DNA of 56,480 nucleotides, from IMG/VR virus record IMGVR_UViG_3300022200_000053, positions 1 to 56,480 of that record; one strand, given 5' to 3'. Within the stretch, counting starts at the first letter, position 1. The number at the start of each line of letters is the position of its first letter. This document shows, one piece after another, positions 16,638 to 46,919 of this stretch. The stretch is from a virus. Position numbers and translations under genes: made by a program. The notes under the pieces are model-generated. The model did no database searches, had not been told where the DNA came from, and saw only the letters and a list, made by a program, of their open reading frames with translations.

Positions 16638-16883
16638 ATGAACAAGACCAACAAGATGGCGATGGAAGCCAAAGCGAAAGCTGAGGCAATGGGTTGGGAA
16701 GCTCGGGTTCAACTGGACCAGAGCGACGTTCTCGACATGGCAACGGTGGTTGCTTGGAAGAAGGGAGCAACAGATGAGAGCCCAGCTCGCTACATCCGAT
16801 TCACGGAAGAACGGGAATCGGTTAGAGGTTGGGTTCTAGTTAAGCACGCAATGATCAAGCTGGATTATTGCAACTGTTACTGA
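16638..16883 (+). CDS. Small protein of unknown function
   Basis: The first gene of the early small-gene array encodes 81 residues. A charged Lys/Glu/Ala N-terminus leads to ARYIRFTEERESVRGWVLVKH, a compact beta-like region. No family recognised. Its stop codon TGA lies inside the first helix of family A element 1. Confidence 0.6.
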   Translation: MNKTNKMAMEAKAKAEAMGWEARVQLDQSDVLDMATVVAWKKGATDESPARYIRFTEERESVRGWVLVKHAMIKLDYCNCY

Positions 16884-16950
16884 TAGCTGGTGCGAAGGGA
16901 GGTTCGATTCCTCCCATCAGACTTGCCCTCAGCGGAGATGGGCACCGCAC
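16879..16950 (+). repeat. Family A tRNA-like/pseudoknot element, copy 1
   Basis: CTGAT/ATCAG closing helix (16880-16884/16916-16920). T-arm-like hairpin GGGAGG-TTCGATT-CCTCCC (16897-16915). Pseudoknot TGCCC/GGGCA (16924-16928/16940-16944) interleaved with GCGG/CCGC (16932-16935/16945-16948). The upstream stop TGA is in the closing helix; an SD CAGGAG and ATG follow. Nearly identical to copy 4. Confidence 0.85.
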
Positions 16951-16964
16951 AACAGGAGATTCCA

Positions 16965-17159
16965 ATGAAGGTTTCTTTTCCCGTTGCATTGACTGCATTC
17001 ATTGCAGTTCCTCTTGCGATCCAAGTTGTTTCTGCAGTGGCTGTATTACCAGCTCTGGAGAAGGCGACGACAGAACAGTGCAAGACCCATGATTGGCCTG
17101 CTCACCAGCATGCTGCTCACATGGATTTCTGTACTAGCAACGGCTACCCAACCAACTGA
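16965..17159 (+). CDS. Small membrane protein, paralogue of the 17693 gene
   Basis: A 64-residue protein. A hydrophobic N-terminal helix (about residues 5-30) is followed by LEKATTEQCKTHDWP and a C-terminal FCTSNGY. The gene at 17693 has the same plan (LDKATAEQCRTHDWP, WCIGNGY), so the two are paralogues. Two Cys residues could form a disulphide outside the cytoplasm. The ATG is preceded by ACAGGAG. Function unknown. Confidence 0.65.
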   Translation: MKVSFPVALTAFIAVPLAIQVVSAVAVLPALEKATTEQCKTHDWPAHQHAAHMDFCTSNGYPTN

Positions 17160-17232
17160 GTACAAGGCGTGATGCCGGGGGATCGAATCCCCTACTCAGT
17201 TATTGCCCAGTACGCAGAGATGGGCACTGCAC
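17155..17232 (+). repeat. Family A element, copy 2
   Basis: The perfect 8-bp closing helix ACTGAGTA/TACTCAGT (17155-17162/17193-17200) contains the stop TGA of the gene above. A GGC-gtgat-GCC hairpin is followed by the T-arm-like GGGG-ATCGAAT-CCCC (17178-17192). In the pseudoknot, GCAG/CTGC (17214-17217/17227-17230) replaces GCGG/CCGC, a compensatory change. Confidence 0.85.
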
Positions 17233-17247
17233 AATCAGGAGATCCCT

Positions 17248-17388
17248 GTGGGTTACAAGCATCTTTCGGCGGTAGAGCGCCGCATCGTTTTCCAGACCTG
17301 GAAAGCATGGCAGCTTTATCCGGTGCCAAAGCACTGGGTACAGCAGGCCATCCAGGAAGCCCTGATTAATTTCAGGTCTCCCAACTGA
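17248..17388 (+). CDS. Small basic protein (GTG start)
   Basis: A 46-residue protein beginning at GTG 17248, preceded by CAGGAG. It contains LSAVERRIVFQTWKAWQLYP, an amphipathic aromatic helix. No family recognised. The upstream ATG of this frame falls inside the RNA element, so the GTG start is preferred. Confidence 0.55.
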   Translation: MGYKHLSAVERRIVFQTWKAWQLYPVPKHWVQQAIQEALINFRSPN

Positions 17389-17459
17389 TCCGTAAAAGCG
17401 GTCATCCCCGGTGCAATGCCGGGGTCAGTTATTGCCCCCAGCGGAGATGGGCACCGCAC
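17383..17459 (+). repeat. Family A element, copy 3
   Basis: Closing helix AACTGA/TCAGTT (17383-17388/17425-17430) carries the stop codon. T-arm-like hairpin CCCCGG-TGCAATG-CCGGGG (17406-17424). Pseudoknot TGCCC/GGGCA (17433-17437/17449-17453) and GCGG/CCGC (17441-17444/17454-17457). A small D-arm-like CCGT...GCGG lies between. Confidence 0.85.
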
Positions 17460-17472
17460 CACGGAGCAACTC

Positions 17473-17610
17473 ATGGCTATCCGTAAGAACCTTGCCAAGA
17501 CCCTGATCAACGCCGCCAAGGCGGTGGAGAAGGATCAGACAAAAGAACGCATCCAGAAATGGGTGCATGACTCAAGGTTCAAGCTTGCAAAGGTTATTGA
17601 ACCTAACTGA
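17473..17610 (+). CDS. Small basic helical protein
   Basis: A 45-residue protein, MAIRKNLAKTLINAAKAVEK..., rich in Lys and Ala. It starts at ATG 17473 after a GGAG sequence downstream of element 3. Unknown function. Confidence 0.55.
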   Translation: MAIRKNLAKTLINAAKAVEKDQTKERIQKWVHDSRFKLAKVIEPN

Positions 17611-17677
17611 TAGCTGGTGCGAAGGGAGGTTCGATTCCTCCCATCAGACTTGCCCTCAGCGGAGATGGGCACCGCAC
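17606..17677 (+). repeat. Family A element, copy 4
   Basis: This 72-nt copy matches copy 1 almost base for base. It has closing helix CTGAT/ATCAG, T-arm-like GGGAGG-TTCGATT-CCTCCC (17624-17642), and pseudoknot TGCCC/GGGCA (17651-17655/17667-17671) with GCGG/CCGC (17659-17662/17672-17675). It precedes the paralogue of the gene behind copy 1. Confidence 0.85.
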
Positions 17678-17692
17678 AACCAGGAGTTTCCT

Positions 17693-17872
17693 GTGACCAA
17701 GCTTATTGCTTCCTACGTAATCATTGCCGCATTCATCATGGGCATTGGTGGACAGATTATTGTTCACCAACTGGACAAGGCTACGGCTGAGCAATGCCGT
17801 ACACACGACTGGCCGAAGGAGGCCGACCAGATCCACAGGGACTGGTGCATTGGTAACGGCTACCAGATCTAG
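17693..17872 (+). CDS. Small membrane protein, paralogue of the 16965 gene
   Basis: A 59-residue protein with a GTG start preceded by CAGGAG. A transmembrane helix (about residues 4-25) is followed by LDKATAEQCRTHDWPKEADQ and WCIGNGYQI. Conserved Cys pair and HDWP are shared with the 16965 protein. Element and gene together appear to have been duplicated as one cassette. Confidence 0.65.
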   Translation: MTKLIASYVIIAAFIMGIGGQIIVHQLDKATAEQCRTHDWPKEADQIHRDWCIGNGYQI

Positions 17873-17946
17873 CTGATCCGTTAAAGCGGGTTGGGAGGTG
17901 CGAACCCTCCCACAGTTATTGCCCTTAGCGGAGATGGGCACCGCAC
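17871..17946 (+). repeat. Family A element, copy 5
   Basis: Closing helix AGCTG/CAGTT (17871-17875/17913-17917, one G-U pair). T-arm-like GGGAGG-TGCGAAC-CCTCCC (17893-17911). Pseudoknot TGCCC/GGGCA (17920-17924/17936-17940) and GCGG/CCGC (17928-17931/17941-17944). The upstream TAG stop ends one base before the helix. Confidence 0.85.
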
Positions 17947-17960
17947 ACTAACTCAGCTCA

Positions 17961-18149
17961 ATGGACATCCTCTACTTCACCCTGACCACCGAAGATGCTG
18001 TCTACAAGTTCCAGGTCAACAAGGCAGAGAACTTGGTGCGTGTCACCAAGATGATTCTCAAGAACAAGTGCTTTGGAGAGTGGCATCGTTCCACGTCAAT
18101 GACTGTAGACGCAGGGCGAAAGCTCGTGCGTCAACTACAGGCCAGGTGA
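17961..18149 (+). CDS. Small protein of unknown function
   Basis: A 62-residue protein, MDILYFTLTTEDAVYKFQVN..., mixed alpha/beta with a basic C-terminus (DAGRKLVRQLQAR). No recognised family; no strong SD before the ATG. Its stop overlaps element 6. Confidence 0.55.
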   Translation: MDILYFTLTTEDAVYKFQVNKAENLVRVTKMILKNKCFGEWHRSTSMTVDAGRKLVRQLQAR

Positions 18150-18217
18150 GTATAGCTCCCAAGCCAGGTGCAATGCCTGGCTCTGGTCATTGCCCCCAGC
18201 GGAGATGGGCACCGCAC
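18140..18217 (+). repeat. Family A element, copy 6
   Basis: Closing helix GGCCAG/CTGGTC (18140-18145/18183-18188). T-arm-like AGCCAGG-TGCAATG-CCTGGCT (18162-18182), a 7-bp stem. Pseudoknot TGCCC/GGGCA (18191-18195/18207-18211) and GCGG/CCGC (18199-18202/18212-18215). Confidence 0.85.
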
Positions 18218-18233
18218 ACTCGGAACTAACAAC

Positions 18234-18425
18234 GTGTTCTTCGTTGTTCTCAACAACCAGCAGCACAGTGCACACTTCTGCCAAGAAGATGCGTACATCG
18301 AAGCTGCTCAACTGGACCACATGCTCAACTCTCCAGAGTTGAACGATGGAGTCCAGAACTTCAACGAGGTATCCGTTCTCTCCTTCGTGGAGATGATGGA
18401 GTCTCCGGTTGAGATGGTCATCTGA
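18234..18425 (+). CDS. Small acidic protein (probable GTG start)
   Basis: A 63-residue acidic protein with a likely GTG start at 18234, since earlier codons of the frame lie in the RNA element. It contains FFVVLNNQQHSAHFCQEDAY. The 3' end of the gene supplies the 5' strand of the next element's acceptor-like helix. Function unknown. Confidence 0.5.
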   Translation: MFFVVLNNQQHSAHFCQEDAYIEAAQLDHMLNSPELNDGVQNFNEVSVLSFVEMMESPVEMVI

Positions 18426-18494
18426 CCAGGCGTGATGCCGGGGGATCGAATCCCCCACTCAACCATTGCCCCCACGGGAGATGGGCACCCACAC
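18407..18494 (+). repeat. Family A element, copy 7 (cloverleaf-like)
   Basis: The most tRNA-like copy. A 7-bp acceptor-like helix GGTTGAG/CTCAACC (18407-18413/18458-18464) encloses a 4-bp hairpin GGTC-atct-GACC (18416-18427), a GGC-gtgat-GCC hairpin (18429-18439) and GGGGG-ATCGAAT-CCCCC (18440-18456). The pseudoknot keeps TGCCC/GGGCA and uses GGG/CCC (18476-18478/18488-18490). Confidence 0.85.
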
Positions 18495-18506
18495 ATGGAG
18501 AGATCC

Positions 18507-18809
18507 ATGCACGTCTACCAGCTTACCGAGAATCCTCGTGATTCGTTTTACGGTGGCGATGATTTGTCCACTGTCATCGGTTATTACGCTTCTAAGCGTA
18601 AAGCAGATGCCAAGGCTGTAGAGCTATCAGCTCGACAAGCTAAGGAAGAAGAGCTGGATTGGATTACCAATCCTTGCGAATGCGGTGATCGCCAGTGTGA
18701 TCGCCGTGACAAGTTCTTCACATCTTGGCATGTGGACAGAATTGATCTAACTGAGTTGTCGATGCGGCGACTCATGGAGATCGAGTTGGCTGATGCCGAC
18801 GAAGACTGA
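18507..18809 (+). CDS. Small charged protein with Cys/His cluster
   Basis: A 100-residue protein starting at the second ATG (18507), which has GGAGAG at the correct spacing; the first ATG (18495) lies in the SD region. It contains NPCECGDRQCDRRDKF, a Cys cluster that may bind metal. No family recognised. Confidence 0.55.
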   Translation: MHVYQLTENPRDSFYGGDDLSTVIGYYASKRKADAKAVELSARQAKEEELDWITNPCECGDRQCDRRDKFFTSWHVDRIDLTELSMRRLMEIELADADED

Positions 18810-18879
18810 TCCGTCAAAGCGGGTGACCAGGTGCAAACCCTGGTCCAGTTATTGCCCCCAGCGGAGATGGGCACCGCAC
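18805..18879 (+). repeat. Family A element, copy 8
   Basis: Closing helix ACTG/CAGT (18805-18808/18846-18849) with the stop TGA of the preceding gene. T-arm-like ACCAGG-TGCAAAC-CCTGGT (18826-18844). Pseudoknot TGCCC/GGGCA (18853-18857/18869-18873) and GCGG/CCGC (18861-18864/18874-18877). Confidence 0.85.
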
Positions 18880-18893
18880 ACCAGGAGTTTCCT

Positions 18894-19088
18894 GTGGACC
18901 AAGCTCTTGCTTACACTCTTGAAGTGCTGATCTCCCTTCGTGAGGCAGCAATTGAAGATTGCTGTCAGAGAATGGTTAGCCATGAAACCTGCATGGCCGA
19001 GATGGTTGATCGTTTCATTAAGGCTAATGATCCGAATGGTGAGATTGCCAGGAAGGTCTATGCCTCAATGTTTAGGTCAGACCACTAA
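18894..19088 (+). CDS. Small helical protein (GTG start)
   Basis: A 64-residue protein with a GTG start behind CAGGAG. It is helical and mildly acidic (LEVLISLREAAIEDCCQRMV), with a Cys pair. No family recognised. Confidence 0.55.
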   Translation: MDQALAYTLEVLISLREAAIEDCCQRMVSHETCMAEMVDRFIKANDPNGEIARKVYASMFRSDH

Positions 19089-19090
19089 TT

Positions 19091-19162
19091 AGCTGATCCG
19101 TTAAAGCGGGAGGCAGGGTGCGATCCCCTGCCCAGTTATTGCCACCCACCGAGGGTGGCTTA
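19091..19162 (+). repeat. Family A element, copy 9 (pseudoknot replaced by a hairpin)
   Basis: The tRNA-like half is intact: closing helix AGCTG/CAGTT (19091-19095/19133-19137) and T-arm-like GGCAGGG-TGCGATC-CCCTGCC (19112-19132). The pseudoknot is replaced by a simple 7-bp hairpin GCCACCC-accga-GGGTGGC (19141-19159). It is the last copy of the array. Confidence 0.8.
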
Positions 19163-19171
19163 CACAAGATC

Positions 19172-19432
19172 ATGCAACCTCTAATCTATCAACCCAAGCA
19201 CGAACATAAGTATCGTGTCGCATGGTATGGCAGTAGCACCCAGCTTCACTTCCAGAAGTACTGCTTAGTTGCCACGCCTGATTTTGATGGAGATTACGAG
19301 TGGATCGACATCGATGTCCGTAATCTCATGGGTGGCCTTCCGAATGGTGTTAAGGAATTGCACCAGGAGATGGAAGATTATTACAACTATGGCATAGTCC
19401 AGGAACAGGACTATGCTGCATCACTTGTCTAA
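19172..19432 (+). CDS. Small protein of unknown function
   Basis: An 86-residue protein, MQPLIYQPKHEHKYRVAWYG..., with an aromatic beta-like core and an acidic C-terminal helix. ATG 19172 follows element 9. Function unknown. Confidence 0.6.
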   Translation: MQPLIYQPKHEHKYRVAWYGSSTQLHFQKYCLVATPDFDGDYEWIDIDVRNLMGGLPNGVKELHQEMEDYYNYGIVQEQDYAASLV

Positions 19433-19683: not shown

Positions 19684-19720
19684 AAGGGGCTTCGGCCCTT
19701 TACTGCAGGGTTCTCCTGCA
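19684..19720 (+). repeat. Family D double hairpin with UUCG loop, copy 1
   Basis: AAGGGGC-TTCG-GCCCTTT (19684-19701) is followed by TGCAGG-gttct-CCTGCA (19704-19720). A similar pair recurs at 19998-20038. UUCG tetraloops make very stable hairpins; the U-run after the first is short, so terminator function is uncertain. Confidence 0.7.
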
Positions 19721-19748
19721 TCCACTCAACTCAACCCAAGCTAGTTCC

Positions 19749-19997: not shown

Positions 19998-20038
19998 GGA
20001 GGGGCTTCGGCCCTTCCCACCAGGACTCAATATCCTGG
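19998..20038 (+). repeat. Family D double hairpin with UUCG loop, copy 2
   Basis: GGAGGGGC-TTCG-GCCCTTCC (19998-20017) is followed by CCAGGA-ctcaata-TCCTGG (20020-20038). It has the same order as the copy at 19684 with a different second helix, which is compensatory. Confidence 0.7.
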
Positions 20039-20063
20039 GCACTAAACCCATTGTTACTACGGA

Positions 20064-46847: not shown

Positions 46848-46849
46848 AT

Positions 46850-46919
46850 CGGGATGGAAGGTACTGCCCCTTCTCCTTTGCGTCCCAAACGCAATGTGAT
46901 ACTTTTCTACTACATCCCG
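46850..46919 (-). tRNA. tRNA-Pro (UGG anticodon), degenerate
   Basis: Acceptor CGGGATG/CATCCCG (7 bp). Anticodon arm TTGCG-TTTGGGA-CGCAA gives UGG. T-stem GAAGG/CCTTC is intact but the loop is GGCAGTA instead of TTCRANN, and the D-arm is poor. The 5' CGGGATGTAG is typical of tRNA-Pro. It may be functional in a phage-specific form or be decaying. Confidence 0.7.

Follow-up and report, generated by a model that had tools for sequence, protein, structure and literature searches.

What divides a run of very small phage genes when a similar RNA element recurs between each gene and the next? The question arises in a virus record of 56,480 bases (IMG/VR record IMGVR_UViG_3300022200_000053; hereafter the window, meaning the whole stretch of DNA analysed), which encodes a terminase, a DNA polymerase and a primase and belongs to a phage kin to the freshwater Synechococcus phage S-EIV1. 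Ten consecutive small genes occupy positions 16638-19432 on the + strand, with nine elements of ~75-90 nt in between. We find that each element joins the acceptor/T-arm half of a tRNA to a pseudoknot or hairpin. The best explanation, which we hold with somewhat better than even confidence, is that RNase Z, the host endonuclease that processes tRNA 3′ ends, cuts after the discriminator nucleotide, the element acting as a tRNA mimic and as a protector of the new 5′ end.

A covariance model built from 48 elements (R1) was run over the window with filters off. It returned exactly nine matches, all on the + strand within 16878-19166 (E 4e-19 to 2.1e-10); seven of the window copies are in the R1 alignment, so that their scores are partly by construction. 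An exact 28-base pattern is common to six of the nine elements, and its reversed control gave none. The original prediction, made from the letters of this DNA, had seen nine elements punctuating an operon of tiny genes, and this description holds. The elements are as follows (bits are R1 scores, linker types are described below and predicted cuts fall between the two positions given):

16878-16951, + strand: element 1 (64.4 bits, E 4.4e-13); tRNA-like part 16880-16922 with type C linker AGCTGGTGCGAA and T-loop TTCGATT; pseudoknot 16924-16948; predicted cut 16922/16923.
17154-17233, + strand: element 2 (58.6 bits, E 9.1e-12); tRNA-like part 17154-17201 (AACTGAGT/ACTCAGTT); pseudoknot 17204-17230 with second helix GCAG/CTGC; predicted cut 17202/17203.
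17383-17460, + strand: element 3 (84.1 bits, E 1.4e-17); type A linker hairpin CCGTAAAAGCGG; pseudoknot 17433-17457; predicted cut 17431/17432.
17601-17678, + strand: element 4 (66.1 bits, E 1.8e-13); pseudoknot 17651-17675; predicted cut 17649/17650.
17871-17947, + strand: element 5 (88.6 bits, E 1.3e-18); type A, 7+5 bp; pseudoknot 17920-17944; predicted cut 17918/17919.
18140-18218, + strand: element 6 (70.2 bits, E 2.1e-14); acceptor GGCCAG/CTGGTC beginning in coding sequence; linker GTGAGTATAGCTCCCA; pseudoknot 18191-18215; predicted cut 18189/18190.
18407-18495, + strand: element 7 (53 bits, E 1.8e-10); cloverleaf-like; pseudoknot from 18467; predicted cut 18465/18466.
18804-18880, + strand: element 8 (90.9 bits, E 4e-19); type A, 7+5 bp; pseudoknot 18853-18877; predicted cut 18851/18852.
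19091-19166, + strand: element 9 (52.7 bits, E 2.1e-10); type A tRNA-like part; plain hairpin GCCACCC-ACCG-AGGGTGGC at 19140-19159 instead of a pseudoknot; predicted cut 19138/19139; fold -34.8 kcal/mol, z -3.3.

The proposed structure is carried by covariation. In the 48-row alignment 92.4% of the cells are paired, against 74.8% after shuffling and 37-49% when the strands are slid, and the covariation score was reached by none of 500 shuffles. A tree-based null on 136 distinct composites gave 13 significant pairs (E<0.05), all 13 of them in the proposed structure and none elsewhere; they include two pairs in pseudoknot helix 1 and three in helix 2, two interleaved covarying helices that make the knot an H-type pseudoknot. 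Helix 2, which was not used for detection, is paired in 186 of 186 pseudoknot copies. The 3′ strand is fully paired in 191 of 265 copies, compared with 34% when flanks were swapped between elements and 14.5% when they were shuffled (same maximisation). Energy folding alone gave modest z-scores for several copies (-0.55 to -3.3), because folding leaves out pseudoknots, and it is the covariation that carries the case. Covariation thus establishes a 12-bp stack of acceptor and T-stem, a T-loop, a discriminator-like nucleotide, UU, and a pseudoknot or hairpin that starts from the second U.

These results agree with the closing helix and T-loop originally described, and they correct two details. 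Closing helix and T-arm had been presented as separate; both are present, and they form one stack whose division varies. A pseudoknot had been assigned to every copy; copies 1 to 8 have it, and copy 9 ends in a plain hairpin, as do about a third of its relatives. Copy 7, for which a near cloverleaf had been proposed, does form a four-way cloverleaf-like structure, which is also its minimum free energy fold, with acceptor GGTTGAG/CTCAACC reaching into coding sequence, arms TGGTC..GACCA and GGCGTGATGCC, and the T-arm.

We collected at least 287 distinct copies from IMG/VR stretches found by pattern, a sample smaller than the family. The 12 bp of the stack are split between T-stem and acceptor as 7+5, 6+6, 5+7 or 4+8, and despite this variation the distance from T-loop to pseudoknot is 21 nt in 228 of 266 copies. 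The T-loop follows the consensus [TA][TG]C[AG]A... A GNRA tetraloop for TGCAAAC was ruled out, as positions 6 and 7 vary, position 5 is fixed and the type B and C loops have no G2. A linker replaces the D and anticodon arms: a hairpin CCGTNNAAGCGG (type A), a hairpin GGCGTGATGCC (type B), an unpaired stretch like ATGGTGTA (type C) or longer forms. Most copies have one short hairpin or none, and two linker arms with a cloverleaf fold occur only in the copy 7 type. Measured against tRNA (RF00005), the 12-bp acceptor/T stack and the T-loop are present, and the D and anticodon arms are as a rule absent. Nucleotide 73 (N73) is A in 187 of 221 copies and is followed at +1 and +2 by UU in all 221, of which +1 is unpaired and was not used for detection. 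CC at 74-75 occurs in none of 265 copies, i.e. there is no CCA past position 73, unlike in the window's own tRNA-Leu, whose CCA is encoded. The pseudoknot is found in 186 copies (about two thirds) with helices TRCCY/RGGYA and GCGG/CCGC, the latter also as GCAG/CTGC, GTGG/CCAC, AGGG/CCCT, GCCG/CGGC and others; most of the other 101 copies have a plain hairpin instead.

Loop and linker are coupled. Hairpin linkers with the dinucleotide GC have the loop TGC (97 pairs), and those with GG have TTC (21); 17 apparent exceptions turned out to be other linker types picked up by the search expression. TGG linkers have T55 in 22 of 23 cases, and type B NGA linkers have ATC in 37 of 38. Such coupling would be the trace expected of a contact like that in the tRNA elbow, a geometry that we infer.

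RNase Z cuts after N73 and is inhibited by CCA, which acts as an anti-determinant (PMC3161902). A U no more than 2 nt past the discriminator raises the activity of the Bacillus subtilis enzyme ~200-fold (PMC10100781), and in the presence of Co2+ an archaeal RNase Z can dispense with D and anticodon arms (PMC7479834). Cyanobacteria possess RNase Z as well as RNase J, a 5′-3′ exonuclease whose substrates are RNAs with a non-triphosphate 5′ end (PMC10989914). The elements carry these substrate traits, with CCA absent and a U within 2 nt downstream throughout. RNase Z is favoured because of the stack, the lack of CCA, A73, the downstream U, the substitution by a true tRNA described below and the dependence of mimic type on the upstream gene. 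Mimic type tracks the family of the upstream gene (mutual information 0.46, null maximum 0.24) and shows no association with that of the downstream gene (0.19, null mean 0.17), the families being defined by protein clustering with coverage limits. A tie to the upstream gene would follow from a mimic that remains part of the message before the cut.

The proposed course of events is as follows. The small-gene cluster is likely to be transcribed as one polycistronic RNA, because sigma-70 promoters and intrinsic terminators between the genes show no excess over shuffles. Host RNase Z would recognise the mimic in this transcript and cut between N73 and UU. This would leave the upstream message with its stop codon intact and with a compact tRNA-like 3′ end, and would give the downstream message a 5′-monophosphate end within one nucleotide of the knot, where RNase J and RNase E may be hindered. 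The position of the knot makes sense since cyanobacterial RNase J attacks non-triphosphate 5′ ends. The operon would in this way be punctuated without tRNA production, as tRNAs do in mitochondrial transcripts.

A weak match in the marine phage S-CBP42 led to the T7-like cyanophages, in which the same minihelix lies directly upstream of the major capsid gene. In S-SBP1 it reads ACTGAT-CCGTAAAAGCGG-CAA-GGGAGG(TGCAATG)CCTCCC-ATCAGT-A-TTGG, and variants occur in P-SSP7, P-SSP2, Syn5, S-TIP28, S-TIP37, S-CBP3 and many contigs. In this marine set N73 is A in 30 of 40 copies, and a U follows within 2 nt in 40 of 40. In cyanophage NATL1A-7 the capsid slot is occupied by a genuine tRNA-Gly(TCC) (70.5 bits), followed by the same leader. 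Like the mimics it has the 12-bp acceptor/T stack, no CCA and UU downstream; it differs in being a complete tRNA, whereas most relatives have the minihelix form only. At L250:628-695 the slot holds a degenerate tRNA-like copy (31.2 bits) that ARAGORN missed. In 27 distinct marine copies it is taken by an unrelated hairpin with a conserved 15-nt loop CACCUCAGAGUCGGA and a variable stem of 5-10 bp (L204, L206, L212, L216, L221, L245 and others); this hairpin was considered as a known RNA such as PhotoRC-II and has no Rfam match. The capsid slot thus alternates between true tRNA, worn tRNA, minihelix and unrelated hairpin. One element, or a true tRNA, would here part the capsid message from that of the preceding genes.

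We regard it as quite possible, at slightly less than an even chance, that two cyanophage groups (S-EIV1-like and T7-like) evolved or exchanged tRNA-derived punctuation, passing from tRNA through degenerate tRNA to minihelix, with RNase Z the main splitter of the operon's mRNA and the knot at the cut capping each message. The direction from tRNA to mimic is suggested by one intact and one worn tRNA rather than by a tree. Two further observations concern the capsid slot. Leaders after it (e.g. L209:490-560) have a conserved structure TTGGC..CCTTACGAGG-ATACC..GCCGTCTAGACGGTGGGATAGACC with apparently compensatory changes, which is not in Rfam. Upstream of the slot, L203, L204, L206, L208-L211 and L216 have a Glutamine-II riboswitch (RF01704), frequently ahead of a short open reading frame (ORF).

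The original prediction had named RNase P beside RNase Z, with a coupling of termination to reinitiation as the alternative, and it is borne out in part. Processing by tRNA enzymes is supported by the sequence signatures described, which point to RNase Z and speak against RNase P. Full excision as in a tRNA operon, with RNase P cutting on the 5′ side of the element and RNase Z on the 3′ side, would trim both messages and discard the mimic; RNase P gauges the acceptor/T-stem stack from the elbow (PMC4919913), the mimics have such a stack, and NATL1A-7 has a genuine tRNA in the equivalent slot. We nevertheless consider this reading unlikely, because in 177 of 279 copies the upstream stop codon occupies +2/+3 of the acceptor strand, so that the 5′ cut would usually deprive the upstream message of it, and because the acceptor 5′ end is the least conserved part of the element. 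It departs from the RNase P boundary (G1-C72, conserved N-1): pair 1:72 is paired in 82% of copies and mostly A-U, and N-1 is mostly C. A translation device, in which mimic and knot engage ribosomes at termination or initiation (through reinitiation, standby or docking as at an internal ribosome entry site) and tie stop to start at a set distance, appears about as improbable. It would account for the tight position of the stop codon, for start codons 41-43 nt past the pseudoknot start in 118 of 181 copies and for starts held in a hairpin of at least 5 bp in 32 of 131 pseudoknot leaders (1.7% in shuffles). However, an S-EIV1 element lies some 50 nt beyond the upstream stop, no ORF of 40 codons precedes L032:5100, and hairpin-type copies, with starts mostly 32-38 nt past the hairpin start, have a Shine-Dalgarno sequence in 2 of 82 and start hairpins in 0 of 82. 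The spacing itself may come from shared cassettes.

Less probable again is an element that remains uncut and whose mimic and knot stop exonucleases from both sides or insulate genes. Alternative hairpins in the same slots and the better conservation of structure than of sequence fit such a role, yet a barrier needs neither the 12-bp length, the T-loop and the loop-linker coupling nor the absence of CCA and the UU. The repeats could lastly act as DNA and have no role as RNA, being either recombination sites for cassette shuffling or worn tRNA attachment sites. In keeping with this, copies 1 and 4 share 75 identical nt, and 53 downstream and 63 upstream gene families are joined in 126 combinations among the copies. 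Compensatory changes in all helices, pseudoknot included, and the constant location of the window elements on the coding strand between genes make this very improbable.

RNase Z cutting, the reading that we prefer, also has evidence to contend with. The unrelated hairpin in 27 marine relatives indicates that the role of the slot does not require tRNA mimicry, and copies related by descent do not make the counts above independent events. Cleavage, enzyme and protection are all read from sequence. In S-EIV1-like elements the UU could in part be a requirement of the pseudoknot, as the second U belongs to helix 1. The usual precursors of RNase Z have a mature 5′ end and an unstructured trailer; the elements have mRNA on their 5′ side and a trailer that is a tight knot. 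Finally, a 7-bp T-stem with a 5-bp acceptor departs from normal tRNA geometry.

R1 matched all 30 other records searched, which had been preselected for part of the pattern. Of these, 29 are viral, including the isolate S-EIV1, and they hold 1 to 8 copies each (two in S-EIV1). The remaining match, in a metagenome-assembled genome of Armatimonadetes, was judged to be chance, as it has no T-arm and apparently lies within coding sequence. It was the only genome contig with the pseudoknot pattern among 84,980 species, a search of hosts in which the full R1 model was not run. S-EIV1 and relatives have a second intergenic family, CCTGGGC..TCCA..TAAGYCCCAGG (L013:8317-8364, L013:9012-9072, L009:8084-8140), and a leader hairpin GGGGGCTGCGCATCC..CGCAG stands ahead of the first gene or element of the cluster at L013:5704-5732, L012:4933-4980 and L032 about 5050.

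The small genes that the window elements separate have no family assignment:

16638-16883, + strand: first small gene, 81 amino acids; kept in 6 IMG/VR contigs; stop TGA inside the acceptor strand of element 1.
16965-17159, + strand: 64 amino acids; resembles 17693-17872.
17248-17388, + strand: 46 amino acids; CAGG..CCTG hairpin with the GTG start at its end.
17473-17610, + strand: 45 amino acids.
17693-17872, + strand: 59 amino acids; resembles 16965-17159.
17961-18149, + strand: 62 amino acids.
18234-18425, + strand: 63 amino acids.
18507-18809, + strand: 100 amino acids; ATG start within a CATGGA..TCCATG hairpin.
18894-19088, + strand: 64 amino acids; GTG start after AGGAG in a hairpin.
19172-19432, + strand: gene past the last element, 86 amino acids.

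Shine-Dalgarno sequence and start codon lie together in a small hairpin at 17240-17250, 18496-18509 and 18882-18896 (CAGG..CCTGTG, CATGGA..TCCATG). Beyond the cluster, the spacers 19685-19722 and 19998-20040 contain a GGGGCTTCGGCCCT hairpin followed by a second hairpin (e.g. TGCAGG..CCTGCA), and similar paired hairpins occur in L009 and L012. At 46849-46919 on the minus strand, Rfam identifies a tRNA (42.3 bits) that ARAGORN missed and whose T-arm looks atypical.

The class mimics that half of a tRNA which processing enzymes read. If our interpretation is true, the tRNA punctuation known from mitochondria has a counterpart in bacterial viruses, made by a repeated RNA class that covariation supports and Rfam lacks. 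Infected cyanobacteria would then use RNase Z to process mRNA, and the elements might be employed as genetic parts where an operon is to be split. As the class is present in the well-studied isolates P-SSP7, Syn5 and S-EIV1, its nucleotide-precise cut sites are directly testable, perhaps in existing transcript-end data.

How do the elements compare with known systems? Scans of Rfam 15 at gathering and relaxed (E<=10) thresholds gave no family covering the window elements, and neither RF00005 at its gathering threshold nor ARAGORN called a tRNA at any of the nine. The original prediction had been staked beforehand, among other things, on covariation and on the absence of a match to a known family with another role; the covariation is overwhelming, and Rfam holds no match. 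We found no report of the elements in the literature searched, mostly without subscription papers. The mascRNA/menRNA family (RF01684), cut by RNase P and RNase Z in MALAT1 and MEN beta, is likewise a tRNA-like structure within a longer RNA for which processing by tRNA enzymes is proposed; the window elements, which lack an Rfam match, differ in being phage mRNA with tandem copies and a 3′-side pseudoknot. Plant-virus tRNA-like structures also combine T-loop/elbow mimicry with pseudoknots in viral RNA. They stand at the 3′ end of RNA genomes, however, whereas the phage elements are internal and repeated and have an ordinary acceptor helix; no Rfam family of such structures matches, and in place of a 3′-terminal aminoacylatable end there is mRNA on both sides and no CCA. 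Mycobacteriophages have start-associated sequences (SAS/ESAS), repeated elements ahead of small phage genes, that we set beside ours by description only and for which we know of no tRNA-like fold. In phage T7, intergenic RNase III sites are structured intercistronic RNAs that yield separate messages, likewise in a T7-like phage; the present element has another shape and, as we infer, would be served by another nuclease. Mitochondrial tRNA punctuation likewise places tRNA-shaped elements between the genes of one transcript, with stop codons overlapping the element. The phage elements differ from it in that they are not functional tRNAs (no CCA, usually no anticodon arm), repeat one fold in many copies and are followed by a pseudoknot, and their cleavage is predicted. 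Both tRNA punctuation and tRNA mimicry are known principles; what is new, to our knowledge, is that the elements occur in phages, stand in tandem, are fused to a 5′ knot and belong to a series from tRNA to mimic.

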